The position numbers and the translations under genes are program-made. This document shows, piece after piece, positions 4,778 to 60,272 of a DNA stretch of 64,000 nt. Origin of the DNA: Candidatus Nitrosopelagicus sp. (GTDB taxonomy: Archaea > Thermoproteota > Nitrososphaeria > Nitrososphaerales > Nitrosopumilaceae). Each line of letters opens with the position of its first letter. Positions within the stretch are counted from its first letter, which is position 1. The notes beneath the pieces are model-generated. The model saw only the letters and a program-made list of their open reading frames with translations. It searched no databases and had not been told where the DNA came from. Location of the stretch: the NCBI GenBank assembly GCA_028343435.1, contig JAOLYM010000003.1, positions 1 through 64,000 on the forward strand, read 5' to 3'.

Positions 4778-4801
4778 AAAATGATGTTTCATTGAATCAG
4801 A

Positions 4802-5317
4802 TTGTTTATATACACATATTCGGTTGTTATACCAGTGATTAACTCTAAACACACACTGACAATTTTGGCAAGCTTGATGCTAGTTGCAGCAATGCCTATG
4901 GCATTTGCTGATGGACATGCATCTGATGGCTTGACAATTACAGCAGATGCAGTTGAGGGTTCAACAACAATCACCATCGCAGGACACGCTACTTCAAGTA
5001 ACACTCCTGTAACAATCATGGTTCTTGCACCAAACGGAAACGTTGTTTCTATTGATCAAATCAACCCTGATTCTGATGGTTCATTCACTTCAACAATCGG
5101 TGTTGGTGGTCCAATGTGGAAACAAGATGGCGTGTATTCAATTACCGCACAACAAGGTTCTGCCTCAATGAACAAATCAACCGTTGAAGTAGAGATTGCT
5201 GATGGCGCAGTTGTTCCAGAATTTGGTACAATTGCATCTCTAGTACTTGTTGTTGCAATTTCTTCAATCATAGTATTATCTGCAAAAGGCAGACTTAGTT
5301 TCGCACCAAGAATCTAA
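4802..5317 (+). CDS. Exported protein with C-terminal PEFG-CTERM sorting signal
   Basis: N-terminal signal segment; C-terminus VVPEFGTIASLVLVVAISSIIVLSAKGRLSFAPRI (PEFG, hydrophobic helix, basic tail). True start may be an internal codon. Confidence 0.85.
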   Translation: MFIYTYSVVIPVINSKHTLTILASLMLVAAMPMAFADGHASDGLTITADAVEGSTTITIAGHATSSNTPVTIMVLAPNGNVVSIDQINPDSDGSFTSTIGVGGPMWKQDGVYSITAQQGSASMNKSTVEVEIADGAVVPEFGTIASLVLVVAISSIIVLSAKGRLSFAPRI

Positions 5318-5397
5318 ACTGTCCACTTTTCTTATTTTCACTTTTTATTTAGGTAGTCTATAAACTTCTTAAGTTCCTTTTTCATTGTAATTGTATA

Positions 5398-6057
5398 GTG
5401 GATGTTGAAAAATTTCAAGATGATGTATATGCTATCACTGAACTCTTGTCAAAGAATTTATCACCTGAATTAACTCCTAAGTTGAACTTTGTCAGGCAAA
5501 ATTTAATCGAATTCTACAAGAAAAATCTGGTAAAAATCAATCATTCTGTTCTTGAATTAATCTGTGCTGCAGAATTAATCTCTCATGGATTCACAGTGGA
5601 TGTTGAAAAATCTATTTCTGATATTCTGGTATGCGATTTATTTGGAAAAAAAGGTGATGGAACTACCATAATTGAAATTGAGACTGGATTCACTCCTCCT
5701 GAACATGCATTAGATACTGTGGATTATTACGCTGCAAGAATTGTTAGTAAAATTGCTCGTTATAGCAAACATTGTGGAAAATTTTCACTTGCTACTCCTG
5801 TGGTTAATATTTTGCCCATGTCTGAAATATTCTTACTTCCTCCAAACGCAAGAAACCTTGAGGATGTAAAAAAACTTAAAAAATTATGTGACCGATTTTA
5901 CAAAAACCCTAAAATAAATTTAGAAGATATTCAAAATGCTCACATTCATTCTGTTTATCTGATAAACACTGACAAAGGATTTGCTAAGGAACTGGATCCT
6001 GAATTATATCTGCAAATGACAAAACAGTTGATGAAACAAAGTGAAATTGATCTTTAA
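5398..6057 (+). CDS. Hypothetical protein (possible nuclease-like fold)
   Basis: 219-aa ORF, GTG start; ELICAAELISHGFTVDVEKSISDILVCDLF...IIEIETGF is reminiscent of restriction-endonuclease-like cores (weak). Confidence 0.6.
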   Translation: MDVEKFQDDVYAITELLSKNLSPELTPKLNFVRQNLIEFYKKNLVKINHSVLELICAAELISHGFTVDVEKSISDILVCDLFGKKGDGTTIIEIETGFTPPEHALDTVDYYAARIVSKIARYSKHCGKFSLATPVVNILPMSEIFLLPPNARNLEDVKKLKKLCDRFYKNPKINLEDIQNAHIHSVYLINTDKGFAKELDPELYLQMTKQLMKQSEIDL

Positions 6058-6131
6058 TTTTAGAAATTTGATCTTTGTTAACAATAATTTCTCATAAGGT
6101 TTAATACACGATTATCTAGGATGATTGCCAT

Positions 6132-8327
6132 ATGACTAAATACAAGTCAACATCTGAAGTGATGAAAATTATCAGTGACAAAGATAAGATCAGAAATTTT
6201 GGTGTTATTGCACACGTGGACCATGGTAAAACTACCATGAGTGATAGTCTTTTGGCACACTCTGGAATTATCTCCCCATCCACTGCTGGAAGTGCATTGG
6301 CAATGGATTCAATGAAGGCGGAACAAGAAAGAGGAATTACAATTGTTCAAGCTAACGTTACATTACATTATCAACAGGATGATGATGATTATGTGATCAA
6401 CATGATTGATACTCCTGGACACGTCGACTTTTCTGGTCGTGTAATTAGAAGTCTTAGGGCAATTGACGGTGCTGTAGTAGTATGTGATGCTGTAGAAGGT
6501 ATTATGACTCAAACTGAAACTGTAACTAGAATGTCTCTTGAAGAGCGAGTAAGACCTGTTTTGTATATTAATAAAATTGATCGACTTATCAAAGAACTAA
6601 GATTAACCCCTGAAAAAATGCAAGAAACATTAGCAAGCGTTGTAGCAAACTTTAATGAATTAATTGACACTTATGCTGAAGATGAATACAAGGAAAAATG
6701 GAAAGTATCTATTCAAGATGGTAGTGTGACATTTGGTTCTGCAAAAGACAAATGGGCAATCAATGTTGATATTATGAAGAAAAAGGGCGTAACCTTCAAA
6801 GATGTTATTGATGCATATTCTGATTCTGGTAAAGTTGAAGATTTAGTAGAAAAAGCACCATTAGCTGAGGGTGTACTTGGAATGGTAGTAAAACATCATC
6901 CGCCACCACATGTTGCACAAAAATACAGAATACCAAAAATTTGGAAAGGTGATCTGGAATCTGATACTGGTAAAGCACTTCTTGCTTGTGATGATAATGG
7001 TCCTACAATTATGATGTGTGTAAATATGACAATTGACCCGGCAGCTGGACCTGTAGCAATTGGAAGGTTGTTTTCGGGAACAATCAAAGATGGTCAAACA
7101 ATTAACATTATTGATACAAAACGGGAAGGTCGTGTTCAATCTGTAAACTTCTTCATGTCTAATGTAAGGGAGCAAGTAGGTGAATTGGGGGCAGGAAATA
7201 TTCCTGCATTATTAGGATTAACTGATGTTCGTGCAGGACAAACCATTTCTACTGTAAAAGACATTCCTGTATTCGAAGCATCAAAATATGTTTCAGAACC
7301 TGTTGTGCAAATGGCAATTGAACCAAAGCATCCAAAAGACTTACCAAAACTTGTAGAAGTTTTAAGAAAACTTACAATTGAAGATCCAAATCTTGTAATC
7401 AAAATTGATGAAGAGAGTGGTGAAACTATTATGGCTGGAATGGGTGTATTGCACCTTGATGTGGCAGTTAATCTAATCAAAGATGCAAAAGTTGAGATTG
7501 TAACATCTGAACCATTAATCAATTACCGAGAAACAATTAACGGCGGATGTGAACCAGTTATGGCAAAATCTCCAAACCGTCACAATAAAATTTTCATGAA
7601 AGTTGAACCATTAGAGCCTGAAATTGCAGAAATGTGCAGAAATGGCACTCTAAGTGAAATGAAGGATAAAAAAGAAACTGCCCAATTATTACGTGAAAAA
7701 GGTTGGTCACCAGATGTAGCAAAGAAGGTAATGAGATTTGATTCTCGCGGAAATGTTATGATTAACGGAACAAAAGGTGTTCAATTTGTAGATGAATCTA
7801 CTGATTCGTTATTATCTGGATTTGATGAAGTAATGAGTGAAGGCGGTCTTACTAAAGAACAGGTAAGAAACTGTAAATTCACATTCACCCATTTCGTTCC
7901 TCACGAAGACACTGCTCATAGAGGCTTATCACAAATTGGACCTGCATCTAGACGTGCATGTCTTGCTGCATTCTTGTCTGCAGAGCCTGTATTGTTAGAA
8001 CCAATGCTTGCAATTGAGGTTCGAGTTCCAACTGATCTAATCGGAAACGTTTCATCTGTATTACAAGGAAAACGTGGTAAAGTTTTAGATATGCAACAAA
8101 AAGGTGCAACAAGTATTGTAATTGGTGAAGTTCCTGCAGTTGAAACATTTGACATATCTGAAAAAATGCGTGGCCAAACAGCTGGTAAAGCAATGTGGAA
8201 TACACACTTCAAAGCATGGACTGCAGTTCCAAAATCAATTGCTGCAACCCTAACTGAAGATATTCGAAAGAGAAAGGGTTTGAGTCCAAATCCTCCTGCA
8301 CCAACTGAATTTATCGACAGAGACTAA
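6132..8327 (+). CDS. fusA: Translation elongation factor aEF-2
   Basis: NFGVIAHVDHGKTTMSDSLL, DTPGHVDFSGRV, NKIDRL; 731 aa. Confidence 0.97.
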   Translation: MTKYKSTSEVMKIISDKDKIRNFGVIAHVDHGKTTMSDSLLAHSGIISPSTAGSALAMDSMKAEQERGITIVQANVTLHYQQDDDDYVINMIDTPGHVDFSGRVIRSLRAIDGAVVVCDAVEGIMTQTETVTRMSLEERVRPVLYINKIDRLIKELRLTPEKMQETLASVVANFNELIDTYAEDEYKEKWKVSIQDGSVTFGSAKDKWAINVDIMKKKGVTFKDVIDAYSDSGKVEDLVEKAPLAEGVLGMVVKHHPPPHVAQKYRIPKIWKGDLESDTGKALLACDDNGPTIMMCVNMTIDPAAGPVAIGRLFSGTIKDGQTINIIDTKREGRVQSVNFFMSNVREQVGELGAGNIPALLGLTDVRAGQTISTVKDIPVFEASKYVSEPVVQMAIEPKHPKDLPKLVEVLRKLTIEDPNLVIKIDEESGETIMAGMGVLHLDVAVNLIKDAKVEIVTSEPLINYRETINGGCEPVMAKSPNRHNKIFMKVEPLEPEIAEMCRNGTLSEMKDKKETAQLLREKGWSPDVAKKVMRFDSRGNVMINGTKGVQFVDESTDSLLSGFDEVMSEGGLTKEQVRNCKFTFTHFVPHEDTAHRGLSQIGPASRRACLAAFLSAEPVLLEPMLAIEVRVPTDLIGNVSSVLQGKRGKVLDMQQKGATSIVIGEVPAVETFDISEKMRGQTAGKAMWNTHFKAWTAVPKSIAATLTEDIRKRKGLSPNPPAPTEFIDRD

Positions 8328-8524
8328 TGGTCAAAATAGAAACATTTGATGCAAATACATTCTGGAATAAATCTTATGCTCATCAACGTGGCAAATTACT
8401 AAAACGCGTACAGGTACCTGATGATCAAATCAAAATCTTGGTAAACAAATCGTATTTAGAACTTCCAGCGCCACTCCGATATGAGATAGAAACTAGCGGT
8501 ATAACAAAAGCAGAACTTAGTTAA
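8327..8524 (+). CDS. Small conserved-looking hypothetical protein
   Basis: 65-aa ORF whose ATG overlaps the aEF-2 stop (TAATG). Confidence 0.6.
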   Translation: MVKIETFDANTFWNKSYAHQRGKLLKRVQVPDDQIKILVNKSYLELPAPLRYEIETSGITKAELS

Positions 8525-9536
8525 TCTTTTTCACTTTCTGTCTTGTAGTGACATTAAATGTTTCATCCTTCGTTATGTTTTCATCACTTTTTACAGCTTG
8601 AGCTAGTTTTGGATTTGCGAATGATGCTATTTTGGCATCCTTTAGTTTTTTACATAGATTTCTAATTGTAACGCTGCTGATATTTGCAGCTTTTGATACC
8701 TGGGTCTGAGAAACCTTTTCACCATTTATTATTGCAGCTAAATAAACGACAGTTGCAGCCATTGCAACTGGATTTTTACCGCTGGTAATCATCAACTCTT
8801 CCGCTTTGATCAAGAATTTTATTGCATCTCGTTTAGTTTTTTCAGATGCGCCTACCTCTGTTGTAATTCTTGTAATGAAACTTACTGGGTTGTATGTTTC
8901 TAATGTCAAATCTAAATCTCGAACCAGCATTCTATAAATTCTATGTATGCTTGTTCTTCGTAAATTTGTTGCATCTGCGACATCTTGGATAGTTCGTGGT
9001 GTGTTAGTGAATCTACACGATGCATATACACAGGCACTCAAAATAACTGGTATACTTCTACCTCTTCCAATTTTCTTGGCTAATGTTTTTCTGTAAATGT
9101 ATGCTGCTTGCTCAACTGCTGCATCTGTAAGTGATAATTTTGCTTTGAGACCTTCTAAGAGGGTGAAAGCTTTCTGCATATTTCTATGACCTGGAAGTGC
9201 TTTGCTATTCTTATCCCACATTCGTAAACGATAAAATGTTCTTTTCATTTCTCCGCTCAAATTTTTACCTGTTGCATCTTTGTCTGATTGTTGGATTACT
9301 GTGGATAAGCCCATGTCGTTGAATGCAAGCGTTGATTTTCGACCTGTTCTGGATTTTGACATGTAATCTTCACCTGTCTGCATAGATTCTGGTCCAAGCT
9401 CTGCTTCATTTTGTGATATAACTTCTCCACAAGATGAACACATTACCTCGCCCGTAGTACTGTCAGAAACTAAGAGAACGTCTTTTCCTTTGTTAGTCTT
9501 ACAAACGTGATTATTAGGTTCAGGATCTTTTTTCAC
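8517..9536 (-). CDS. tfb: Transcription initiation factor IIB
   Basis: CSSCGEVISQNEAELGPE, B-reader-like region SRTGRKSTLAFNDMGLSTVI, two cyclin-like repeats. Confidence 0.93.
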   Translation of the reverse strand: MKKDPEPNNHVCKTNKGKDVLLVSDSTTGEVMCSSCGEVISQNEAELGPESMQTGEDYMSKSRTGRKSTLAFNDMGLSTVIQQSDKDATGKNLSGEMKRTFYRLRMWDKNSKALPGHRNMQKAFTLLEGLKAKLSLTDAAVEQAAYIYRKTLAKKIGRGRSIPVILSACVYASCRFTNTPRTIQDVADATNLRRTSIHRIYRMLVRDLDLTLETYNPVSFITRITTEVGASEKTKRDAIKFLIKAEELMITSGKNPVAMAATVVYLAAIINGEKVSQTQVSKAANISSVTIRNLCKKLKDAKIASFANPKLAQAVKSDENITKDETFNVTTRQKVKKIN

Positions 9537-9604
9537 TACTCTACTATATCGGTTTGAATTAATTAGTAATGTCTTCTAGTGTTAACTTTTTTTCTTTAGC
9601 ACTA

Positions 9605-9754
9605 TTATTCTTCAGATTTATTCTGATGATGAAGATTCACCATGATAAATGACATTTCTCTTAGAAATTCGTATTCTCCATTTGACCAAGAATACTTGTT
9701 TGCATTATCCCAAAAATCCTGTCCTGATTTGGATTCAAAATCTTCCGTTTGCAT
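9605..9754 (-). CDS. Small hypothetical protein (49 aa)
   Basis: Own translation: MQTEDFESKSGQDFWDNANKYSWSNGEYEFLREMSFIMVNLHHQNKSEE*; upstream of tfb on the same strand; below the track cutoff. Confidence 0.5.
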   Translation of the reverse strand: MQTEDFESKSGQDFWDNANKYSWSNGEYEFLREMSFIMVNLHHQNKSEE

Positions 9755-9919
9755 ACACTATATTGTATTTTGATCTATAATACGCAAATTGCCTTTTCTG
9801 ATTGACAAAGATGGTCAAAAAAATTGATCCCTCTATGAGCGAGAATTGATTTTAGACTGAGTTCAGGTCAATCTAATCAACAAAGTATCACATTTACGCA
9901 CACATCACTATTGACTTAC

Positions 9920-10051
9920 ATGAAAGCAAGATTTGATGGAAAATGCAAAAGCTGTGGCGATGATATCCGAAAAGGTAAGGAAATCGCCAAAAACGCAGAT
10001 GAGGTTTGGGTTCACAAACACTGTGTTGAAGAATTAGTGGATTTGCCTTAA
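9920..10051 (+). CDS. Small zinc-binding-type protein (43 aa)
   Basis: Own translation: MKARFDGKCKSCGDDIRKGKEIAKNADEVWVHKHCVEELVDLP*; CxxC ... HxxC knuckles. Confidence 0.65.
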   Translation: MKARFDGKCKSCGDDIRKGKEIAKNADEVWVHKHCVEELVDLP

Positions 10052-10082
10052 ATCATATATCCACGGTTTTTTTATTTTTAAC

Positions 10083-10928
10083 ATGCTGATTAATCCTATA
10101 GATTTACTTCTATGGACATTTCGAAGAAATGAAAGTGACGTTGTAAAATTATATGATTCCCTTTCTCCGATTATGGAGGTCTCTACTGGTGGAGATATGC
10201 TGAATTTCGGATATTGGGATAATTCTACTCCTCATCCTATTGATGCGCAAAAACGATTATGTCAAATGATTGGTGAAATGGCTGAAATATCTGCCGCAGA
10301 GGTGATTGCTGATATTGGAAGTGGAATTTTAGGACCTGCAAAGATTTGGAGTTCTCAACACCCTTTGTTAGAAATTTGTTCTGTAAACGTAAATCTCTCA
10401 CAATTAGCCTCAGTTAGTTCTGATAATATTTTAAAAATAAATTCTACCGCAAGGATGCTTCCATTTTCAAATTCCTCATTAGATTGTGTAATTGCATTAG
10501 AATCTGCCCAACACTTCAAACCTATTGGAGATTTTTTTTCTGAATCAAATCGTGTTTTAAAAGATGATGGAGTTCTTGCACTTGCAATACCTACTGCGAC
10601 AGATAATTCTAGTTACAGCAATCTTGGAATATTGAAATTCACTTGGTCATCCGAACATTATTCACAAAAAAATATTATATCTGAACTTTCTAAAAATGGA
10701 TTTGAAATTATAGAATCAAACGATATTGGAAAAAATGTTTACTCTCCTCTTGCTGAATATTATATCCACAATCGTCCTGAATTACAAAAAAAGATTCTTT
10801 CCCGTTATTCTAAATATGTAGAAAAAATACTTTTTGAATCTATGAAAAAAATGCAATCTGCATCTGAAAATGAACTGATCGGTTATTTGATGCTAAAATG
10901 TAAAAAATTAGCACTAGACTCACGCTAG
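10083..10928 (+). CDS. SAM-dependent methyltransferase
   Basis: EVIADIGSGILGPAKIW, ARMLPFSNSSLDCVIALESAQHF, SNRVLKDDGVLALAIP. Confidence 0.85.
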   Translation: MLINPIDLLLWTFRRNESDVVKLYDSLSPIMEVSTGGDMLNFGYWDNSTPHPIDAQKRLCQMIGEMAEISAAEVIADIGSGILGPAKIWSSQHPLLEICSVNVNLSQLASVSSDNILKINSTARMLPFSNSSLDCVIALESAQHFKPIGDFFSESNRVLKDDGVLALAIPTATDNSSYSNLGILKFTWSSEHYSQKNIISELSKNGFEIIESNDIGKNVYSPLAEYYIHNRPELQKKILSRYSKYVEKILFESMKKMQSASENELIGYLMLKCKKLALDSR

Positions 10929-25525: not shown

Positions 25526-25948
25526 TTATAATTTTCTTAGTTTAGAAACGCCTTTTGTAATATGTTCAATTATCAAATCTAGTGATGTTCCTGGACCAAA
25601 GTTTCCTGTAACTCCTGATTTTTCTAATGCTTTTTTATCTTCTTCAGGGATTACTCCTCCTCCAACAACCAGCACGTCGTTGATCTTTTTCTTTTTCAAC
25701 TCTTTTACAACTCTTGGAAATAATGTTCCGTGAGCCCCATTAAGCAAACTTAAGGCGACAGCATCTGCATCTTCATCTTCTACAATTTGTGCAATTCTGT
25801 CTGGTGTTGCAAATAATCCTGAATAGATTACTTCCATTCCTGCATCTCTGAATGCTCTACATAGGATTAGAGCGCCTCTATCATGGCCGTCTAGACCCAA
25901 TTTTGCAACTAGAATTTTAACTCGTCGTGATTGTACCTTCTGCTTCAT
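25526..25948 (-). CDS. Methylmalonyl-CoA mutase, B12-binding small subunit
   Basis: KILVAKLGLDGHDRGALILCRAFRDAGMEVIYSGLF (DxHxxG cobalamin motif). Confidence 0.93.
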   Translation of the reverse strand: MKQKVQSRRVKILVAKLGLDGHDRGALILCRAFRDAGMEVIYSGLFATPDRIAQIVEDEDADAVALSLLNGAHGTLFPRVVKELKKKKINDVLVVGGGVIPEEDKKALEKSGVTGNFGPGTSLDLIIEHITKGVSKLRKL

Positions 25949-25960
25949 GATTTAATTCTT

Positions 25961-26027
25961 AAAATTTGGCTTTAAAATCTTTCTTTACATCTAAGATTTT
26001 TAATCAAGCACTGAGATTGCTTTGTAT
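25961..26027. repeat. Direct repeat copy 1 (promoter/leader segment)
   Basis: AAAATTTGGCTTTAAAATCTTTCTTTACATCTAAGATTTTTAATCAAG... matches 28099 onward over the first 48 nt with 1 mismatch. Confidence 0.9.
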
Positions 26028-26029
26028 TC

Positions 26030-27235
26030 ATGGGGATTTCATTAAATATTGTATTTCTTTTTGCGTTGATTCTGGTAGGAATTAGTCTACTTTCTGTAGT
26101 GTTTCCTGCATTAATTTTGCATGAATTTGGACACATCTCTACTAATCAATATGATCAATTTGAGATTGGAAATAATGCCGTGCTTTTAGTTGTAAGTAAC
26201 ATTATAATTTTCTCAATTGGATACTTGTATAAAACTAACAAACTTGCAAATTTTTCATCATCGCTTAATAAAATTAGAAATTTTGAAATATCCAAAAAAC
26301 AATCTTTGATTGGTGGGATAATAATACTAATTGTATATTCTACGGCAGCTATTCCTGAATTAACAATAGATGAATCAACACAATTCCCTGATTACAAAAT
26401 TCTCATTTCTGGTTTAGATAGCTTTCCTGTAACTGATTCTGGAGATATGATTGCAGATGAACAAAATAGTAGATTTGTTCGTATGATTCTTTTAGGATTC
26501 TCGCAAGATGTTCTTGGCAACATCAAAGTTATTCCATTATTGTTTAGTATACTGTTGGTATCTGTTGCTGGTCTGGTTGCTGTTGAAATATCTCGTAGAA
26601 GAATTACTGGTTTAGTTGCAATGATCGTTCTTTTACAGGGATATACCTTTCTTGAATATGACACAATAGCTGTATATGAAAATCTCTGGGTGGCCTTTTT
26701 TCTTTTATCAATTTACACAATTCATAAAAAATGGCATTTCTCAGGAATACTTTATCTACTTTCTGTATTTTCAAAAGCATTCTCTACCCCATTTTTAATT
26801 TTGAATATTTTCTATGTACTGAAATCCGAAAATAATTCTTCTACTAAAATTAGAATACTGATTTCATATGGAATAATAATTTTAATAATGCTTGGATTGT
26901 TCTCATTAGGAAATACAATATATGATGATGTAATTCAGATTGATCTTAATCGTTTCATGAATAGTTTATCGGATTTCTCATCACAAATGCGTTTTGATAC
27001 GTTCTTGTTAATTATGTTACTTCCTACAATTGTTGGGTTATTTTTTGTTTCGCGCACTGGATTAAAACATGCAGAATCCTTGTTATTCTTTATTCCTAGT
27101 CTTCTATTAGCTGGTCCATTAGTTGCTTTATTGACTGATTTCTATGTGATTTTACCTTATCGATTCATTCCTTTGATTGTATTTTTTTCAATTTCAATTG
27201 CAATTGTAATATTTAGAAATACTAAATCTTCTTAA
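26030..27235 (+). CDS. Polytopic membrane protein (possibly GT39-like glycosyltransferase)
   Basis: Many TM segments; LTIDESTQFPDYKILISG...ISRRRITGLVAMIVLLQGY; family call is inference. Confidence 0.7.
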   Translation: MGISLNIVFLFALILVGISLLSVVFPALILHEFGHISTNQYDQFEIGNNAVLLVVSNIIIFSIGYLYKTNKLANFSSSLNKIRNFEISKKQSLIGGIIILIVYSTAAIPELTIDESTQFPDYKILISGLDSFPVTDSGDMIADEQNSRFVRMILLGFSQDVLGNIKVIPLLFSILLVSVAGLVAVEISRRRITGLVAMIVLLQGYTFLEYDTIAVYENLWVAFFLLSIYTIHKKWHFSGILYLLSVFSKAFSTPFLILNIFYVLKSENNSSTKIRILISYGIIILIMLGLFSLGNTIYDDVIQIDLNRFMNSLSDFSSQMRFDTFLLIMLLPTIVGLFFVSRTGLKHAESLLFFIPSLLLAGPLVALLTDFYVILPYRFIPLIVFFSISIAIVIFRNTKSS

Positions 27236-28085
27236 AAATTTCAGTAACTTTCCATGTACTGTCGCCTTTGTCTACATTTATTGCAGGAAATAATGCAAAA
27301 ACCAAATCAATTTTCAAAGACATTTCTCTTCCATCTAGTTGTCCATCTCTTACTATCTCAGATGATTTTGTCATTCCAAAAAATTTTCTCTCTTTTTCAA
27401 AAGAACTCATTTCCGTTTCATAATACCATCTTATGTAATCATTTTGACCAATTTTAATAATTTCTTTTTTATAATTTATTGAATTTTGTTCTTTTCCATC
27501 AAGATGTTTTTCAGTCAGTCTTGTAGGTGATATACTAGTTCCTGAATTTTCAATTACACTAACTAACATGCCATTATTGTCTCTAACAATTTGCTGAATA
27601 TTTACAATATATTCTCCATTAGTTTCTCTTACATCGAATGTATTGACTTGTGTAAACATAAAATTACGTTTTAATTTTATATCTTCATTTTCAGGATTTA
27701 TTTCTAGCATATTCTCAAAAATTTGTAATGCTTGTAATGGTCCACAATTAAGATATGATTCACATTCAAATTCTGATAAAATGGTTGCTTTACCTTTCAG
27801 TGCTGTTAAATTTTCAGGATCATTTTTTAAAACTAATGAAAAATCATTAAGACTCGATTCGGTATCTTCTATTTTTGCAAATGCCACTGCTCTGTTCAAT
27901 AATGCTTTTTCATTACTTGGATCTATATGCAAAACTTTTGTATATTCTTCAATTGCAGCAACATACTCTTCATTTTTCATTAATATGTATGCTGAATTAT
28001 TGGTTTCTTCTACTAAATCTCCATATGCATTTAGAGAAAAAATACCAATCATAATTGAAATTATGACAAATAACACAATTTTCAT
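27222..28085 (-). CDS. Exported TPR repeat protein
   Basis: Signal peptide plus YVAAIEEYTKVLHIDPSNEKALLNRAVAFAKIEDTESSLNDF. Confidence 0.8.
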   Translation of the reverse strand: MKIVLFVIISIMIGIFSLNAYGDLVEETNNSAYILMKNEEYVAAIEEYTKVLHIDPSNEKALLNRAVAFAKIEDTESSLNDFSLVLKNDPENLTALKGKATILSEFECESYLNCGPLQALQIFENMLEINPENEDIKLKRNFMFTQVNTFDVRETNGEYIVNIQQIVRDNNGMLVSVIENSGTSISPTRLTEKHLDGKEQNSINYKKEIIKIGQNDYIRWYYETEMSSFEKERKFFGMTKSSEIVRDGQLDGREMSLKIDLVFALFPAINVDKGDSTWKVTEIFKKI

Positions 28086-28098
28086 TTAATCAATTGAT

Positions 28099-28165
28099 AA
28101 AATTTGGCTTTAAAATCTTTCTTCACATCTAAGATTTTTAATCAAGGGATGAGACGGTTTTGTAT
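28099..28165. repeat. Direct repeat copy 2 (promoter/leader segment of meaB)
   Basis: AAAATTTGGCTTTAAAATCTTTCTTCACATCTAAGATTTTTAATCAAG...; see copy 1. Confidence 0.9.
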
Positions 28166-29081
28166 GGCAATGCTTCCAGATTTAAAAAAAGCAAAGAGAG
28201 GTGCAATTGCAAAGGCTATCTCCATAATGGAAAATGACCCAAAAGAGGCACGTCAATTAATCAAAAAAATCTACAAAACCTCTGGCAAGGCAATTGTTAT
28301 TGGAATCACAGGACCTGCAGGCGCTGGAAAATCATCTCTCATAAACAAATTATCAATGGAGATGAAAAAACTAAAGCTGAAACCGGCTGTATTGGCGGTC
28401 GATCCTACTAGCCATGTTACAGGCGGCGCTATCTTAGGTGACCGTGTTAGAATGTCAGAATCAACTGATACTGGAACCTACATTCGAAGTATTGCATCTC
28501 GTGGTGCAACTGGAGCCATTGCACACTCGGTTCGGAATAGTTTACGTGTACTAGAATATGCCGGATTCAATCCAATTATAATTGAAAGTGTTGGAGCAGG
28601 ACAAACAGAAGTTGACATTTCAAAAATTGCAGATATCACTGTTGTTACATTTAATCCGCATACTGGAGATAGCATTCAAACCATAAAAGCAGGAATTACA
28701 GAAATTGGTGATATCTATTTGGTAAACAAGAGTGACTTGGATGGTGCAACACAACTATTTCAGGCATTACAAGATTTTATTGGAACCGCAGAAGAAGAAA
28801 CCACAATCCTCAAAACATCTGTAAAGAAAAATAAGGGAATCAAAGAGTTAGCTTCAAAGTTAAAGGAATTAATGAAACAAAAAATAAAGGATAAAAAGAG
28901 TTCTGAGAAAACTCGCCTAAAATCTGAATTAGAAGATATTATTTTAAATAACGTCAGACAGGAAATTTCAATAATGATTGGTAAAAACAAGTCATTTTCT
29001 TCATATTTGAAAAAGGTACAAGAAAAAAAAATGGATCCGTTTGAGGCAGCAGACAAGCTGACAAAAAATTTCATAAAGTGA
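28164..29081 (+). CDS. meaB: Methylmalonyl-CoA mutase-associated GTPase MeaB/ArgK
   Basis: IGITGPAGAGKSSLINKL, AVDPTSHVTGGAILGDRVRM, ESVGAGQTEVDI. Start moved to 28164 because 28104 lies in the repeated promoter segment. Confidence 0.92.
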   Translation: MAMLPDLKKAKRGAIAKAISIMENDPKEARQLIKKIYKTSGKAIVIGITGPAGAGKSSLINKLSMEMKKLKLKPAVLAVDPTSHVTGGAILGDRVRMSESTDTGTYIRSIASRGATGAIAHSVRNSLRVLEYAGFNPIIIESVGAGQTEVDISKIADITVVTFNPHTGDSIQTIKAGITEIGDIYLVNKSDLDGATQLFQALQDFIGTAEEETTILKTSVKKNKGIKELASKLKELMKQKIKDKKSSEKTRLKSELEDIILNNVRQEISIMIGKNKSFSSYLKKVQEKKMDPFEAADKLTKNFIK

Positions 29082-29087
29082 TAAAAT

Positions 29088-30686
29088 ATGGTTGCAAAAA
29101 AGAAAACAAAATTAGCAGAAAAACAATACGTTACCGATTCTAGTATTCCAATTAAGCCATTTTATGTAAAATCCACTAAAAAGAAAACAAAAGAAGTTCC
29201 TGGAAAATTCCCGTATACACGTGGTATTCATCAAGGAATGTATCGAGATAGATTTTGGACTATGCGTCAGTATGCTGGATTCGGTGATGCTGCACAAAGT
29301 AACAAGAGATACAAGTTCATGTTGGATAAGGGACAAACTGGAATATCCATGGCATTTGATTTACCAACACAAATTGGCCATGACCCTGATGCACCACAAG
29401 CCGAAGGTGAGGTAGGAAAGGTTGGTGTATCAATTTCATCTCTGAAAGATATGCAGACCGTCTTCAACGGAATTGAACTAGGTAAAGTTTCAACATCAAT
29501 GACGATTAATGCAACCGCATCCACATTACTTGCATACTATATTGCCGTAGGACAATCTCAAGGATTCTCAAGTAAACAATTACGAGGAACCACACAAAAC
29601 GACATACTCAAGGAATACATTGCAAGAAATACGTACATCTATCCTCCTGAACCATCGATGCGTATAATCGGTGATATGATTGGTTATTGTGCAACCGAGG
29701 TTCCACAATGGTATCCTGTTTCCATATCTGGTTATCACATAAGAGAAGCAGGATCAAATGCTGTACAAGAAATTGCATTTACTATAGCAAATGCCATAGA
29801 ATACATTGAAACATGTATCGCACAGGGATTAAAAATTGATGAATTTGCTCCAAGATTATCATTTTTCTTTTGTTGTACTATTGAGTTCTTTGAAGAAATA
29901 GCAAAGTTCAGAGTTGCAAGAAAAGTATATGCAAAAATCTTAAAAGAAAGATTCCATGCTAAAAATGAAAAATCATTACAATTAAAATTCCATACTCAAA
30001 CTAGTGGTGAATCACTTACCGCACAACAACCTGATAACAACATTGTTCGTGTTGCAATGCAAACAATGGCGGCTGTATTGGGGGGAACTCAATCACTTCA
30101 TACCAATTCGAGAGATGAAGCGTTGGCTTTACCAACTGAAGAATCTGCAAAAATTGCATTAAGAACACAACAAATTGTTGCATCTGAATCAGGTATTATA
30201 AAAACAGTAGACCCAATGGCTGGCTCACATTATCTAGAAGAATTGTGTGATGAGATTGAAGAACAGACATGGGCATATCTCAAAAGAATTGATAAAATGG
30301 GTGGCTCACTCAAAGCAATAGAAAAAGGATTCTTCCAAGCAGAGATTAGACAAAATGCTTATCGTATCAAAAAAGAGGTTGATGATTCTTCACGAGTTTT
30401 AGTCGGCGTCAACAAATTTGTAGATGAGGTTGAGGCAAAACAAAAACTGCTACGAATTGATGATTCCCTTGGTGCAAAACAAGAAAAGGCAATCAAGGCA
30501 TTACGAAAATCTAGAGATAACAAAAAAACTAATACTGCATTATCAAAATTACAGGCAGCGGCAGAGACTGATAAGAATATCATGCCATTCATACTTGATT
30601 CTGTTAAAACATATGCTACAACCGGAGAAATCAGTAACACGTTACGGGAAGTATTTGGTGAATATAGACCAAAGGAGATATTTTAG
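29088..30686 (+). CDS. Methylmalonyl-CoA mutase, large subunit
   Basis: PYTRGIHQGMYRDRFWTMRQYAGFG, GISMAFDLPTQIGHD, GGTQSLHTNSRDEALALPTEE. Confidence 0.96.
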   Translation: MVAKKKTKLAEKQYVTDSSIPIKPFYVKSTKKKTKEVPGKFPYTRGIHQGMYRDRFWTMRQYAGFGDAAQSNKRYKFMLDKGQTGISMAFDLPTQIGHDPDAPQAEGEVGKVGVSISSLKDMQTVFNGIELGKVSTSMTINATASTLLAYYIAVGQSQGFSSKQLRGTTQNDILKEYIARNTYIYPPEPSMRIIGDMIGYCATEVPQWYPVSISGYHIREAGSNAVQEIAFTIANAIEYIETCIAQGLKIDEFAPRLSFFFCCTIEFFEEIAKFRVARKVYAKILKERFHAKNEKSLQLKFHTQTSGESLTAQQPDNNIVRVAMQTMAAVLGGTQSLHTNSRDEALALPTEESAKIALRTQQIVASESGIIKTVDPMAGSHYLEELCDEIEEQTWAYLKRIDKMGGSLKAIEKGFFQAEIRQNAYRIKKEVDDSSRVLVGVNKFVDEVEAKQKLLRIDDSLGAKQEKAIKALRKSRDNKKTNTALSKLQAAAETDKNIMPFILDSVKTYATTGEISNTLREVFGEYRPKEIF

Positions 30687-34476: not shown

Positions 34477-36780
34477 TTGTCCTATATTCTTGATGAAAGT
34501 ATTGGTTATCTAATTTTAATCGGTGTTGGAATTTTACTGGCATCTGTTGTATTGATTTTGGTTAAAGCTGAAACAAAATGGCTTGGAACCAAGAAAACTT
34601 TTGAATGGTTTTCGACTGCAGGTAGAACTGTAAAAACAGGATTAATCGTTACCTCTGTTGTATCTGCATGGACTTGGGCTGCAACTCTTCTTCAATCATC
34701 TACTGTGGCATATCAATATGGGATAAGTGGTCCTTTTTGGTATGCAGCTGGTGCATCAATCCAGGTTGTATTATTTGCCATATTGGCAATTGAATTAAAA
34801 CGAAAATCTCCTATGTCTCACACTTTTCCTGAAATGATAAATTCAAGATTTGGTAAATCCTCACATAAGGTATTTCTTAGTTTTGCATTTCTTACAAATA
34901 TCATAGTAACTGCAATGTTGGTTTTGGGCGGTGCGGCTGTTGTAAATGCACTAACTGGAATTAATGTCTACATTGCTGCATTTTTGATTCCTGTAGGTGT
35001 AATTGCGTATACTTTGTTTGGTGGTCTAAAAGCAACATTTCTTGCAGAATACTTTAACACTGCATTCATCTTTGTGGTCGTTTTGATTTTCACGTCTACG
35101 ATATATTTCATCAATCCTGATATTGGTGGAATCTCTGGAATGTTTGAAAAATTATCTAATGCTGCTGCAATGTATCCTGTTGAAGGAAATGCGGCTGGTT
35201 CATTTTTAACACTTGCATCAGTTGGGGCATTAATTTTTGGAGTTATCAATATTGTAGGAAACTTTGGAACTGTCTTTGTTGATCAATCTTATTGGCAACG
35301 TGCAATTGCATCTCGTCCTCGTTCTGTAGTTCCTGGATTTTTAGTAGGAGGATTAGCGTGGTTTGCCATTCCTTTTGCACTTGCAACAACTTTGGGATTA
35401 GCCGCAGTTGCGGTGAATCTTGAATTAACTCCTCTTGAAATTAGCTCAGGATTGGTTGCTCCATTGGCAGCTGCACATCTTTTAGGCGACATCGGCGCAA
35501 TTCTAATGCTTACTGTTTTATTCACTGCTGTAACTGCTGCAGGTTCTGCACAATTAATCTCTGTATCCTCTCTTGTAACTTATGATGTATTTCGAACATA
35601 CATCAAACCTTCATCCACCGGAAGGCAATTAATGAGAATTTCGAGATATGCTATACTTGGATTTGGACTTGGAATGGGTGCTTTGGCATCCATGTTATTC
35701 CAGTTTGGAGTAAGCTTGCAATACGTCTATCTTGCAATGGGTGTTTTGATAGGTTCTGCAGTTGCACCAATTTCACTTGCAATTTTGTGGAAAGACACCA
35801 ATAGATATGCTGCAACAATCGCTTCGATAGTCGGTCTTGGATGTGGAGTTACAGTTTGGCTTGGATATGCATATGCAACCTCTGGAGAAATTTCTCTTGC
35901 ATCTACTTCTAACATGTTTGCATTATTGGCAGGAAATCTTGCATCAATTTTGACCAGCCTTATAATCACTGTAATCGGAAGTTTATTCCGACCTGAGAAC
36001 TTTAATTTCTCTAAACTAAAACATGAAATTTTTGTAGTTGATGAGCAAATTAGAAAACGCCTAGAAAAAGAAACAAATGAAGAATCTCTCAAAAATGCAT
36101 CTAAATTTAGTATGAGGTATGGTTTGACACTAACTTTGATTCTTGTCGTAGTATGGCCAATTCCATTATTTTTATCAAATTACGTATTCACTGAAACTGT
36201 TTACCATGTTTGGATTTGGGTTGCCATATTGTGGGCTGCAACTGCTGGGTCTTTAGTTTGGGCTTTACCTATAATACAATCAAGATCTGGAATTGCACAT
36301 GTTTTGAAAAATATAGTCATTTCTTCAAAACCTAAAAAATCTGACAAATATGGTCATGATCTTTCTGGAAATGAAATTGCCCAAAAAATTCTTGTCGCTG
36401 TAGATGGCTCTGTCTCATCCATGCGGTCATTGAATTATGTAAATTATGTAATGAAAGAATCTTCTAACATCAAAGTTTACCTTGCTCATATCATAGAGTG
36501 GACTGATGATGACGAATCCATGGATGAAGAAATGACATTAAAGATGGAACAAGATGGACGAAAAATGCTTTTGGGAATTTTACTTCCAAGCAAATTGAAA
36601 AACTATGAACGAATTGTCAAGCTAGGTGATCCTGCAAAAAAGATATCAGAACTTGCAACTTCACTAAATGTTGATACAATTGTAATGGGTCGTAAGGGTC
36701 TAAGTGATACTGATTCTGATTTGGGACATGTCACTTCTAAGTTACTTACTCTAAGCTCAAAACCAATTGTGTTAGTCTAG
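34477..36780 (+). CDS. Sodium:solute symporter (DUR3-like) with C-terminal universal-stress domain
   Basis: SAWTWAATLLQSSTVAYQYGISGPFWYAAGASIQ; C-terminal KILVAVDGSVSSMRSLNYV...VDTIVMGRKGLSDTDSDLGHVTSKLLTLSSKPIVLV. TTG start. Confidence 0.88.
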   Translation: MSYILDESIGYLILIGVGILLASVVLILVKAETKWLGTKKTFEWFSTAGRTVKTGLIVTSVVSAWTWAATLLQSSTVAYQYGISGPFWYAAGASIQVVLFAILAIELKRKSPMSHTFPEMINSRFGKSSHKVFLSFAFLTNIIVTAMLVLGGAAVVNALTGINVYIAAFLIPVGVIAYTLFGGLKATFLAEYFNTAFIFVVVLIFTSTIYFINPDIGGISGMFEKLSNAAAMYPVEGNAAGSFLTLASVGALIFGVINIVGNFGTVFVDQSYWQRAIASRPRSVVPGFLVGGLAWFAIPFALATTLGLAAVAVNLELTPLEISSGLVAPLAAAHLLGDIGAILMLTVLFTAVTAAGSAQLISVSSLVTYDVFRTYIKPSSTGRQLMRISRYAILGFGLGMGALASMLFQFGVSLQYVYLAMGVLIGSAVAPISLAILWKDTNRYAATIASIVGLGCGVTVWLGYAYATSGEISLASTSNMFALLAGNLASILTSLIITVIGSLFRPENFNFSKLKHEIFVVDEQIRKRLEKETNEESLKNASKFSMRYGLTLTLILVVVWPIPLFLSNYVFTETVYHVWIWVAILWAATAGSLVWALPIIQSRSGIAHVLKNIVISSKPKKSDKYGHDLSGNEIAQKILVAVDGSVSSMRSLNYVNYVMKESSNIKVYLAHIIEWTDDDESMDEEMTLKMEQDGRKMLLGILLPSKLKNYERIVKLGDPAKKISELATSLNVDTIVMGRKGLSDTDSDLGHVTSKLLTLSSKPIVLV

Positions 36781-36841
36781 TGGTTTGCATATAACAAACA
36801 CAAAACTATTTTTTTATAAATAATAAATTTTAAGCCGACGT

Positions 36842-36864
36842 CGACTGTTAGAATATAACTGTCG
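36842..36864. promoter_or_regulatory. Dyad-symmetric candidate operator upstream of urea transporter
   Basis: CGACtGTTA-gaata-TAACtGTCG; 8 of 9 arm positions complementary. Confidence 0.45.
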
Positions 36865-36938
36865 CAGAACTTGAAATCTAAAGTGTCATATTCTCAATTC
36901 TTGGAATTCATATATAACAAAAAGTTCTGAAAACATCT

Positions 36939-38984
36939 ATGAAAATTGGCTCTATGGCAATGCTGTCGCTATTTCTTATGTCGATCGCATCAATGGGGTT
37001 AATTCAAAGCGCAGACGCCGCCGGTGCCATTGAAGGGGAATTCGTACTTGGAGAAGTATTAGACGAATCCGTCGGTTGGTTTATTGTTGTTGGTCTTGGA
37101 ATGGTCTTTGCCGGAATCATATCTGCCGAGATTAAGATTGAAGAAAAATACCTTGGAAACATGCAAAGTTCTGAAGGATTCAATACTGCAGGAAGAATCA
37201 TTAAAACTGGTCTAACTGCGGCTGCAATCGTGTCAGCATGGACTTGGGCTGCCACACTGCTTCAATCCTCAACTGTAGCGTATCTTTACGGTGTAAGTGG
37301 TCCTTTCTGGTATGCAGCAGGAGCATCAATTCAGGTACTTTTGTTCGGAATTCTAGCCATTGAACTAAAACGAAAGGCACCAAACGCACACACATTCTTA
37401 GAAATTATCAGAGCAAGATTTGGCGCTGGTACTCACAAAGTTTTCTTAGGTTTCGCATTAACATGTAACATGATTGTAACTGGTATGCTTCTACTTGGAG
37501 GTGCAGCCGTAGTTAACGGACTTACCGGTATGGACATTTCTCTAGCAGCATTCTTAATCCCAGTCGGTGTCATGATTTACACACTTGTAGGTGGTCTCAA
37601 GGCTACGTTTGTAGCGGATTACATGCACACGGTCATTATCTTTATAGTAATTCTAACATTCGTTGCGATGGTATTCTTCATCAGTCCAATCACGGGTGGT
37701 GTCGAAGGAATGTATAACAAACTGGTGGAGGCAGCTTCGCTTAATCCGGTGATATCACCAACCTTCGCTGAAGGCGGAGCAGTTGAAGGTGATCCAAGCA
37801 CATATGGTAATGCTATGGGTGCATACCTTACAATGGCTTCGGCAGGAGGCTTAATCTTTGGAGTTATCAATATTGTAGGAAACTTTGGAACTGTCTTTGT
37901 TGACCAGGCTTACTGGCAACGTGCAATTGCTGCACAACCAAGTTCCACAGTAAAGGGTTTCTTACTTGGTGGAATGTGCTGGTTCGCAATTCCGTTTACA
38001 CTTGCAACTACTATGGGACTGACGGCGGTGGCGATAGATGTTGAGCTATCTCCAGAGCAGGTGCAGCTCGGACTTGTAGTCCCAGCAGCAGCATCAGTGC
38101 TAATGGGTGAGATAGGTGCCATCATGGTACTAGTCATGCTATTCATGGCTGTGACTTCGGCAGGATCTGCAGAACTAATCGCAGTATCTTCGTTGATTAC
38201 ATACGATGTATACCGTACTTACAAGAATCCACAGGCTACAGGCAAACAGCTGTTGAAGGTGAGTCGTGGTGTTATAGTTGCGTTTGGACTTGGAATGGGT
38301 GCGCTTGCGGTTGTACTGTTAGGAATGGGACTTAGTTTAGGATTTGTATACTTAGCAATGGGAATATTGATTGGCTCTGCTGTCATCCCGATTGCGTTAA
38401 CGATTATTTGGAATAGAACAACTCGTGCCGGTGCGGTAGCGGGCGCACTAATAGGTGTCTGTCTATCACTAACCACTTGGACAAGTGTTGCAGCCTCTGA
38501 GGCCAATGGAGTCATAGATATAGCATCACTTGGCGGTGCATTCCCAATGCTTTATGGAAATGTAGTTGCGATATTATCATCAGGATTAATCTGTATAGTC
38601 ATCAGTTTGGCTCAGAACAAGAAATACGATTGGAAAGAATTGGACCAACACATGTCTCTTGTCACTGACGACATGGAACAACACGAAATCACTGCTACCG
38701 AAGTTGCAAAGCGTGAACAAGACGAAGAACAACTAAAGAAAGCCTTCAAGTTCAGTGTTAGAGGTGGAGGCTTGCTCACTTTGGTAGTTATCATATTCTG
38801 GCCAATGCCATTATACTTCTCAGGATACGTCTTCGACTTTGGATTCTACGGACTATGGGTAGGAATCGCAATCGCTTGGGTCAGCGCTGCAGCCGCAATC
38901 ATCATATTCATGCCGATTGTGGAAGCACGGAAAGGCTTCGCGGAAGTGTTCTCAGGCAAGAAACACGCCTCTTCCACAAAATAA
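36939..38984 (+). CDS. Sodium:solute symporter, DUR3-like candidate urea transporter
   Basis: SAWTWAATLLQSSTVAYLYGVSGPFWYAAGASIQ; paralog of 34477..36780; next to urease genes. Confidence 0.9.
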   Translation: MKIGSMAMLSLFLMSIASMGLIQSADAAGAIEGEFVLGEVLDESVGWFIVVGLGMVFAGIISAEIKIEEKYLGNMQSSEGFNTAGRIIKTGLTAAAIVSAWTWAATLLQSSTVAYLYGVSGPFWYAAGASIQVLLFGILAIELKRKAPNAHTFLEIIRARFGAGTHKVFLGFALTCNMIVTGMLLLGGAAVVNGLTGMDISLAAFLIPVGVMIYTLVGGLKATFVADYMHTVIIFIVILTFVAMVFFISPITGGVEGMYNKLVEAASLNPVISPTFAEGGAVEGDPSTYGNAMGAYLTMASAGGLIFGVINIVGNFGTVFVDQAYWQRAIAAQPSSTVKGFLLGGMCWFAIPFTLATTMGLTAVAIDVELSPEQVQLGLVVPAAASVLMGEIGAIMVLVMLFMAVTSAGSAELIAVSSLITYDVYRTYKNPQATGKQLLKVSRGVIVAFGLGMGALAVVLLGMGLSLGFVYLAMGILIGSAVIPIALTIIWNRTTRAGAVAGALIGVCLSLTTWTSVAASEANGVIDIASLGGAFPMLYGNVVAILSSGLICIVISLAQNKKYDWKELDQHMSLVTDDMEQHEITATEVAKREQDEEQLKKAFKFSVRGGGLLTLVVIIFWPMPLYFSGYVFDFGFYGLWVGIAIAWVSAAAAIIIFMPIVEARKGFAEVFSGKKHASSTK

Positions 38985-49220: not shown

Positions 49221-51899
49221 TTATTTCCTTGATTTTTTATTAGATTTTGATTTTTTTATCTTTTTTTGTTCAATCTCAGCTTGTGCTGCCGCAACAATGG
49301 CTATAGGGATTCGATGTGGTGATGCACTAACATATGAGACGTCGGCAGAATGGCAGAATTTGATTGAATTTGGATCTCCTCCATGCTCTCCACAGATTCC
49401 AATCTCCAAGTCTTTTTTGATATCTCTTCCTTGTTTAATTCCAATTTTCATTAGGTGCCCTACTCCGTTAACATCAATTGATTGGAATGGACTAGTTTCT
49501 AGTAGTTCTTTTTCCATATATTCTGGAAGGAATTTTCCTTCTGCATCTTCCCTACTGAAACTAAATACTGCTTGTGTTAGGTCATTTGTTCCAAAACTGA
49601 AAAACTCTGCAGTGTCTGCTAATTCGTCTGATGTTAGACATGCACGTACTACCTCTAACATAGTTCCAAAGTTTATCTTAAATTTTTTCTTAAATTTTTT
49701 CTCCATCTGTTTTTTAACATCATCGTAAATCGATTTAATGTAGTTTAATTCTGCCAAACTTCCTACTTGTGGAATCATTATTTGTGGCTTAGCATTGATT
49801 TTTTTCTTTGAAAGTTCTGCTGCCGCTTCAAACACTGCTGTAATCTGCATTCTGTAAATTTCTGGATATGTGATTGCTACTCTTACTCCTCTATGTCCCA
49901 TCATTGGGTTAATTTCTGCTAGTTCTCTTGCTCTGTCTAAAACTCGTTGAGTTTTTTCACTGGCATCGTTTTCTTTATTCATTTTTTCCTTTAATTCTTC
50001 AGGATTTGGCAAAAATTCATGTAATGGCGGATCTAATAGTCTAATTGTAACCTTATGTCCTTCCATTGCTTTTAGGATTCCAATAAAATCACTTTTCTGT
50101 AATTCTTGTAATTTTTTTAGTATTTTATTTCGCTCTTCTGGTGTTTGTGCCATAATCATTTCAACAAATAATCCAATTCTATCTGTCTCATTGAACATTC
50201 TTTCTGTTCTACACAATCCAATTCCTTGTGCTCCGTACTGTCTTGCTAATTTTGCTGCATCTGGGGTATCTGCATTAGCACGAATTCCTAATTGTTTTGT
50301 ATTTTGCGCCCAACTAAGAATTGTTTGAAAGTCTTTTGTTACTTTAGGTTCGACTGTTGGAACTGCTCCCATCAAAACCGTACCTGTACTGCCGTCGATT
50401 GTTATCGTTTCACCTTCTTTTACGGTAATTCCATTTGCACTACATGTATTATTGTCATAATTGATTTTTAGTTCTGCACATCCTACAATACATGGCTTAC
50501 CCATTCCTCTAGATACTATTGCGGCATGTGATGATTTTCCGCCAAGACTAGTCAAAATTCCCTCTGCTGAGAAGAATGCTGGCACGTCCTCTGGTTTTGT
50601 TTCTTTTCTAATTAAAATGACCTTTTTTCCAGCTTCGCCAAGTTCAATTGCCTTTTTTACATCAAAAATAGCAATTCCACTTGCAGCTCCTGGTGATGCA
50701 GCAATTCCTTTTGCTAATTTTTTATGTTCTTTAATTTTTGATTCATCCATAGTTCTATGAAGTAGTGCTTCTAATTGTTGTGCTGGAATTCTAGTTAATG
50801 CTTTATTTTTATCAATTAATTTTTCTTTTACCATGTCTACTGATGTTTTTACTAATGCGCCTGCACTCATTTTTGCGGTTCTTGTTTGTAAAAGATAAAA
50901 TTTTCCTTGTTCTATAGTAAATTCAATATCTTGCGGTTCTCTGAAATGTTTTTCTAATCTTGCACACGCATTACTTAATTCTTTATGAGATTTTGGCATT
51001 TCTTTTTTTAATAAATCGACGTTCTTTCCTGTTCTAACTCCTGCTACAACATCTTCTCCTTGTGCATTGATTAGATATTCGCCTTCAATCTCTCTTTTAC
51101 CGTTATGCCCATTTCTTGTAAACACTACTCCTGTTGCGCTATCATCTCCCATATTTCCAAAGACCATTGTTACAACATTTACTGCCGTACCATTTGCAAT
51201 ATCTTTTGTAATTCCATTTTTCTCTCTATAGACAACAGCTCTTTCTCCCATCCAGCTTCTGAATACTGCTTCAATTGCTAATCCTAACTGTTCGTTAGGT
51301 GTGTCTGGGAATTTCCTTTTTGTATGCGTTTCACAAATTTTCTTATATTCTGAAACAATTTTCTTTAAAGATTCAACATTTAATTTACTATCATCAGTTA
51401 CTCCTTGTTTCTTTTTTGCAGAATCTAGAATATGATCAAACTTTTCATCATTTACTCCAAATACAACTTTACCAAATAATTGAATAAATCTTCTATATGA
51501 GTCCCATGAGAATCTAGGATTCTTTGTTTGCTGTGCAAATCCTTCTACCGTTTTCTCATTTAACCCTAAATTCAAAATTGTATCCATCATTCCTGGCATT
51601 GAGATTGCAGCACCAGAACGAACTGACACTAAAAGTGGGTTTTTTGTAGAGTTCCATTTTTTACCTGTCTTTTTCTCCATCTTTGCAATATTTTTCATTA
51701 CTAATGGCATGACATCTTTTGGAAGTTTTTTTCCATTACCATAATAGTTGTTACAAACTTCTGTTGTGATTGTAAATCCGGGAGGTACTGGAAGTTTTAG
51801 GCGTGTCATTTCGCTTAATCCTGCACCTTTTCCACCTAGCAGCATTCTGTTTTTACTATCTGCTTCTTCAAATGCATAAACTGACTTGTTTTTTGCCAT
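49221..51899 (-). CDS. ppdK: Pyruvate, phosphate dikinase
   Basis: LLGGKGAGLSEMTRL, GGKSSHAAIVSRGMGKPCIVG, GLCRTERMF, FSFGTNDLTQ, GICGEHGGDP. Confidence 0.97.
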   Translation of the reverse strand: MAKNKSVYAFEEADSKNRMLLGGKGAGLSEMTRLKLPVPPGFTITTEVCNNYYGNGKKLPKDVMPLVMKNIAKMEKKTGKKWNSTKNPLLVSVRSGAAISMPGMMDTILNLGLNEKTVEGFAQQTKNPRFSWDSYRRFIQLFGKVVFGVNDEKFDHILDSAKKKQGVTDDSKLNVESLKKIVSEYKKICETHTKRKFPDTPNEQLGLAIEAVFRSWMGERAVVYREKNGITKDIANGTAVNVVTMVFGNMGDDSATGVVFTRNGHNGKREIEGEYLINAQGEDVVAGVRTGKNVDLLKKEMPKSHKELSNACARLEKHFREPQDIEFTIEQGKFYLLQTRTAKMSAGALVKTSVDMVKEKLIDKNKALTRIPAQQLEALLHRTMDESKIKEHKKLAKGIAASPGAASGIAIFDVKKAIELGEAGKKVILIRKETKPEDVPAFFSAEGILTSLGGKSSHAAIVSRGMGKPCIVGCAELKINYDNNTCSANGITVKEGETITIDGSTGTVLMGAVPTVEPKVTKDFQTILSWAQNTKQLGIRANADTPDAAKLARQYGAQGIGLCRTERMFNETDRIGLFVEMIMAQTPEERNKILKKLQELQKSDFIGILKAMEGHKVTIRLLDPPLHEFLPNPEELKEKMNKENDASEKTQRVLDRARELAEINPMMGHRGVRVAITYPEIYRMQITAVFEAAAELSKKKINAKPQIMIPQVGSLAELNYIKSIYDDVKKQMEKKFKKKFKINFGTMLEVVRACLTSDELADTAEFFSFGTNDLTQAVFSFSREDAEGKFLPEYMEKELLETSPFQSIDVNGVGHLMKIGIKQGRDIKKDLEIGICGEHGGDPNSIKFCHSADVSYVSASPHRIPIAIVAAAQAEIEQKKIKKSKSNKKSRK

Positions 51900-57983: not shown

Positions 57984-60272
<2,289 letters not shown>

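Follow-up and report, generated by a model that had tools for sequence, protein, structure and literature searches.

How did two genes come to stand between the small subunit of methylmalonyl-CoA mutase and meaB, bounded on both sides by the same short intergenic segment? We addressed this question in a window of 64,000 nucleotides, i.e., the whole stretch of DNA analyzed here, from an open-ocean, Nitrosopelagicus-like ammonia-oxidizing archaeon whose own assembly comprises 849 kb and is 66% complete. Nitrosopelagicus ranks among the most abundant marine ammonia oxidizers, and its streamlined genome lacks identifiable mobile elements. The locus described below is a gain of genes that can be resolved to the base, with no visible mobile element and with neither of the putative neighbouring promoters broken. 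The explanation that we regard as best, and as rather probable, is a single insertion of a two-gene cassette with duplication of the promoter, followed by spread through recombination in the flanks.

A repeated intergenic segment encloses a convergent gene pair

Between positions 25526 and 30686, the genes follow in the order small mutase subunit (minus strand), membrane protein (plus), tetratricopeptide repeat (TPR) protein (minus), meaB (plus) and large mutase subunit (plus). The gene calls thus agree with the initial annotation, which had placed the cassette between the small subunit and meaB with one gene per strand facing each repeat copy. The two cassette genes are convergent, the 3' end of the TPR gene overlapping the membrane gene, and the neighbours on either side, small subunit and meaB, are carbon-fixation genes.

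25526 to 25948, minus strand: methylmalonyl-CoA mutase small (B12-binding) subunit, left neighbour (PF02310, E 6.5e-25; TIGR00640, E 1.6e-45)
25954 to 26027, no strand: left copy (L) of the duplicated, putative divergent promoter; 74-nt repeat, outer side and core as in the empty site, inner 20 nt with 7 mismatches
25961 to 26008, no strand: 48-nt core of L, with two outward TATA-like boxes and their upstream elements between them; 0/48 mismatches to the empty site of G018
26030 to 27235, plus strand: first cassette gene, for a polytopic GT-C-like membrane protein of 401 aa (AF2 model, Foldseek, PMT_2 in the family)
27222 to 28085, minus strand: second cassette gene, for a 287-aa TPR protein predicted to be exported, with a beta domain at its C-terminus (TPR_1, E 1.8e-10; model; TPR folds in the PDB)
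28092 to 28165, no strand: right copy (R) of the duplicated, putative divergent promoter; 74-nt repeat, 0/20 mismatches to the empty site right of the core and 5/15 left of it
28099 to 28146, no strand: 48-nt core of R, one mismatch to L
28164 to 29081, plus strand: meaB, mutase-associated GTPase, right neighbour (PF03308, E 5.8e-66; TIGR00750 above cut-off)
29088 to 30686, plus strand: methylmalonyl-CoA mutase large subunit (PF01642, E 6.3e-217; TIGR00641)
25954 to 28091, no strand: net gain of 2,138 bp over the empty site, made up of the cassette and one copy of the repeat (G018 alignment)

The 48-nt core at 25961 and 28099 carries a single mismatch between its copies (47/48), exactly as first reported, and the full ungapped repeat extends over 74 nt (25954-26027 versus 28092-28165) with 65/74 identical positions (88%). 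A 120-nt query over the left copy matched only two places in the organism's own genome, the second at an E-value of 4.5e-21. Thus, the repeat is neither a chance match nor a dispersed element, the latter being one of the outcomes that would have spoken against the original proposal. When 822 kb of the 849-kb assembly were scanned for direct repeats, the stronger pairs were coding paralogues or internal repeats, and no second intergenic direct-repeat pair of at least 40 nt bounding a gene-sized insert was found; the one other wholly intergenic pair measured 37 nt. The other hits of the scan, namely coding repeats of paralogous or low-complexity type and a short palindromic element, gave no second case.

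Relatives carry a precise empty site

For comparison we used related genomes, mostly of Candidatus Nitrosopelagicus and including many single-cell genomes from a single AH-558 set. Searching all 31 genomes of the genus for the segment recovered it in 16, once in 13 and twice in three. In the 13 genomes with one copy, the cassette is absent and the small subunit adjoins meaB across a single segment of 76-80 nt. This is the adjacency without the block for which a synteny comparison had been proposed, and these 13 empty sites, together with two further filled ones with matching junctions, run against the opposite case, in which all relatives would be filled and have unrelated flanks.

The window is collinear with G018 over the whole overlap (window positions 1-59499) with a single break. 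Window positions 1-26027 correspond to 29485-55516 of G018 and positions 28092-59499 to 55443-86853, so that 74 nt of G018 are used twice; the alignments to G005, G007 and G017 show this break as well. Since both window segments end in the same 74 nt, the insert amounts to 2,138 bp, made up of two convergent ORFs and one extra intergenic copy. It is the sole gene-sized difference from the nearest empty genomes in 55 kb of collinear DNA. Of the more distant genomes in which the small subunit/meaB junction is present, 9/9 are empty, which makes the empty site the simpler ancestral state.

When the copies are compared with the empty site of G018, L shows 0/15 mismatches left of the core, 0/48 in the core and 7/20 on the right, i.e., the membrane-gene side. 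Conversely, R shows 0/20 right of the core (meaB side), 1/48 in the core and 5/15 on the left (TPR side). Matching outer sides and diverged inner sides are the polarity that would be expected of a duplication made at insertion. Together with the one-copy empty sites, this polarity supports the initial annotation's view that an ancestral divergent segment was duplicated when the cassette was inserted.

The core is conserved genus-wide, even where it is present in a single copy. The empty site of G018 and that of the complete genome G025 differ at 0/47 core positions, despite a dS of 0.71-0.93 for small subunit, meaB and large subunit between the window and G025. The similarity of the two copies therefore reflects constraint rather than youth.

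Filled sites were found in three genomes, namely the window, G006 (AH-558-I11) and G014 (AH-558-F14). G006 holds both cassette genes and both repeat copies, with substitutions of its own. G014 has retained the membrane gene only: the equivalent of about 27248-28126 of the window is missing, comprising the TPR gene and the TPR-facing half of R, while the meaB-facing half is kept. Searching G014 for a remnant of the TPR gene gave weak, chance-like matches only. The TPR gene was lost along with the promoter half that would have served it, as expected if the two halves of the segment serve different genes.

The segment resembles a back-to-back core promoter

The core contains two outward-facing TATA-like boxes, CTTTAAAATCTTT on the minus side and AAGATTTTTAATC on the plus side. 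Read from the sequence, they lie at about -29 relative to the start codon of the small subunit, -33 for the membrane gene, -30 for the TPR gene and -29 for meaB, i.e., within the ~26-33 nt upstream of a start that would be expected of an archaeal divergent core promoter, in both directions. Across the 40 window genes whose upstream region is free, TATA-like hexamers are most frequent 26-30 nt ahead of the start. Position, composition and conservation suggest that the segment acts as a back-to-back core promoter whose genes are leaderless. Since both cassette genes begin right at the edges of the insert, either copy of the segment would serve two directions, and all four genes would have kept a promoter after the insertion. 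The suggestion that the cassette was thereby placed under the same control is supported as far as the basal promoter elements, and the four genes may be co-regulated. A search of the papers available retrieved no transcription start maps of ammonia-oxidizing archaea, and the insert gave no Rfam match for an RNA element. Since the deletion in G014 removed one putative promoter half with its gene, it offers a natural test of a minimal two-way archaeal promoter.

The cassette proteins point toward the cell surface

The AF2 model of the membrane protein reached a pLDDT of 88 and a pTM of 0.91. In Foldseek searches its best matches included ArnT (5f15; probability 0.99, TMq 0.49, E 0.42), OST, PglB and PimE, none of the structural matches being significant (no E-value below 0.37). 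Pfam PMT_2 was reached by 4/42 family members (best E 4.3e-4), the window member being without a Pfam call. The acidic residues E110, E115 and D121, which follow an early transmembrane helix, are conserved. In its predicted fold and its conserved acidic residues, the protein may resemble the GT-C glycosyltransferases ArnT, PimE and PglB/OST, from which it differs in lacking a Pfam assignment. The TPR protein (model pLDDT 87) combines TPRs with a hydrophobic helix at the N-terminus, reminiscent of an anchor or export signal, and with a C-terminal domain rich in beta structure.

Members of the family were detected only in Nitrosopumilaceae-type archaea, with the exception of one contig filed under a bacterial MAG, which is probably misbinned. 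Membrane and TPR genes recur as a convergent pair in many Nitrosopumilaceae family loci. One may reasonably guess that the cassette takes part in assembling cell-surface glycans, which would agree with both presence/absence and fast divergence; nothing links the cassette genes to the mutase reaction.

A paralogous convergent membrane/TPR pair lies between a ferredoxin-like and a tRNA-guanine transglycosylase-like gene at G000:C5 (L098) 5496-7515 and occupies the same place in many relatives. Tandem pairs of membrane-gene relatives occur at G006:C16 (L100) and G014:C2 (L102), showing local expansion of the family in Nitrosopelagicus.

Filled alleles are diverged and probably imported

The membrane-gene alleles at the mutase site form one clade (support 99/94). 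The closest relatives of these alleles occupy other loci, in G026 next to an alcohol dehydrogenase-like gene and in G005 next to a tRNA-Thr-like gene. The simplest reading of this tree would be one insertion, followed by divergence and then by the deletion in G014. The insert genes differ by a dS of 0.63-1.12, as opposed to 0.06-0.34 for the flanking genes, and the divergence of the flanks climbs towards the insertion point; the insert and its adjacent flanks are thus more diverged than the distant flanks. The 5' half of meaB in G014 is 8.4-8.8% diverged from its clade mates, the same distance as to the outgroup G003 (8.2%), compared to only 2.9-3.9% for the 3' half. Taken together, the excess dS of the insert, the rising flank divergence and the 5' half of meaB in G014 indicate that the filled alleles were probably imported, along with some hundred bases of flank, from unsampled lineages. 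Faster evolution of surface proteins may account for part of the high insert divergence, but the raised synonymous divergence argues against this as the only cause.

Filled and empty sites intermingle among close relatives. Homologous recombination appears to be the way in which filled alleles are exchanged, with the insert apparently passed on through the conserved flanks. For Ca. N. brevis, a recombination/mutation ratio of 24.6 and no identifiable mobile genetic elements have been described, and Nitrosopelagicus may use uncharacterised ways of exchanging genetic material (PMC9239043). The depth of the filled alleles roughly equals that of the G025 split, so the insertion could predate the sampled filled clade, with losses elsewhere.

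A second flexible site is located beside the tRNA-Thr-like gene (G005:C39 (L096) 4594-7409; orthologous loci L239-L248). Here, G005 carries a TPR-less relative of the C-terminal domain and a relative of the membrane gene, G014 carries the C-terminal-domain relative only, G018 has other genes, and both relatives are absent in G006, G007 and G017. Despite this presence/absence of genes, no flanking repeat was found at G005:C39.

Origin of the insert

We propose that a convergent two-gene cassette was inserted once, in the ancestor of the filled alleles, into a ~77-nt back-to-back promoter common to the small subunit and meaB, and that essentially the whole intergenic segment was duplicated in the process. 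L would now drive the small subunit and the membrane gene, R the TPR gene and meaB, with selection holding both copies as core promoters. The filled allele would since have diversified and would now move among related Nitrosopelagicus lineages via homologous recombination in the flanking core genes, so that filled and empty sites coexist in very close relatives.

For the founding event itself, the data do not separate three routes, i.e., repair of a staggered break by fill-in, during which the gene pair was captured, entry of a circle that integrated through the segment, and a prior local duplication. Among the relatives, we saw neither a tandemly duplicated promoter without the cassette nor a circle. 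The insert contains two ORFs only, neither of them a recombinase, and no integrase, tRNA or transposase. No viral copy of the gene family or of the core was detected in the viral contigs searched, and the upstream sequences of about 45 family members include none that resembles the repeat.

An alternative that we consider unlikely is reversible excision, in which the cassette is an old resident and some or all empty sites were derived by RadA/RecA-type recombination between the copies, restoring one promoter and freeing a circle able to re-enter another empty site. Recombination between L and R would yield exactly the empty sequence observed, and both the depth of the insert alleles and the mixture of filled and empty sites agree with it. 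It also has a precedent in the wzy locus of Salmonella Typhimurium DT8/DT30, which lies between 113-bp direct repeats and is excised and restored (PMC12074656). That locus is comparable in size (~2.1-2.6 kb) and likewise shows a surface-glycan-type membrane gene between intergenic direct repeats, a precise empty site with one repeat and presence/absence in very close relatives. For wzy, experiments demonstrated both excision and restoration, whereas excision of the present cassette would be a prediction. Furthermore, the wzy repeats are 100% identical and the word "promoter" is absent from the main text of that paper, whereas the repeat here is 88% identical and would act as a two-way core promoter feeding four genes. 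Reversible excision is at odds with the empty state of all nine more distant genomes and with longest exact matches between L and R of only ~25-30 nt. The two copies also carry changes of their own and are hence not being homogenised, and the imported flank in G014 suggests that exchange proceeds by way of the flanks.

It is conceivable, if quite improbable, that the promoter-flanked cassette forms a self-sustaining exchangeable unit. Host RadA would free a circle of one promoter copy and two surface genes, leaving a working empty site behind, and the circle would re-enter empty cells via the same conserved promoter. If true, marine archaea would have an enzyme-free way, anchored in a promoter, of changing their surface reversibly. 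The locus apparently records a well-resolved, single evolutionary event, and the route from there to this more surprising mechanism is testable.

The founding insertion could also have been a single-crossover integration of a circle that already carried the promoter segment beside the two genes, a version we regard as doubtful. Such a circle would leave direct target repeats on both sides without an enzyme of its own, as proposed for transposed genes of Arabidopsis flanked by target-derived repeats (PMC2869330). In those cases, too, the direct repeats flanking the insert match the orthologous empty site; they differ in coming from a eukaryote and in that the repeats are mostly genic, not promoters. 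However, the circle would have to have captured the segment beforehand, no such circle or segment-bearing donor locus turned up in the searches of the genus and of viral contigs, and the DNA upstream of paralogues elsewhere is unrelated.

Insertion of a mobile element whose own transposase or integrase made a long target-site duplication is very improbable. The direct duplication of the target on both sides resembles a transposon insertion, and the gene subfamily is found at several different loci. However, the insert consists of two ORFs from start to start, with no transposase, integrase, RNA gene or convincing terminal inverted repeats; the duplication of about 74-77 nt is far longer than usual for transposases; and the second cassette site at the tRNA-Thr-like gene has no such repeat, so that a short target duplication of constant length at independent insertions is not seen. 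Tycheposons are tRNA-anchored genomic islands of marine microbes. Like the present locus, they hold flexible genes at a fixed position between direct repeats, whereas here there is no tRNA and no recombinase and the repeat would be a promoter.

We give just as little weight to a larger tandem duplication of small subunit, promoter and meaB with subsequent replacement of the inner genes, which would account for the ends of the segment close to start codons on either side and for the convergence of the inner genes, but needs two precise replacements and has left neither residual inner meaB or small-subunit sequence nor any relative with such a duplication. Finally, an assembly or amplification artefact, suggested by the single-cell origin of several relatives, whole-genome amplification being the usual way to such genomes, is already refuted by the same junctions in the independent genome G006 with its own substitutions, and this idea and that of a dispersed repeat disagree with intact ORFs and just two copies in the genome.

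Other divergent and repeated genes in the window

Outside the mutase locus, a pyruvate phosphate dikinase-like gene (49221-51899) shows ~77-87% identity to G014 in 500-nt windows (median 97%), which suggests allelic replacement of a core gene. Toward the end of the G006 contig, a gene for a TFB-like transcription factor and a methyltransferase-like gene (window positions 8517-10928) are 84-86% identical between the window and G006, the median being 97%. Positions 34569-35681 and 37139-38302 are ~68% alike and apparently hold paralogous genes close together (within 34569-38302). A 762-aa protein encoded at 57984-60272 contains repeated EQLQKELAEAKAEKEQLEREEAEE units and a repeated REELAKEALATRSNKTLPKGFNEESASGGPHAHDEKS block.
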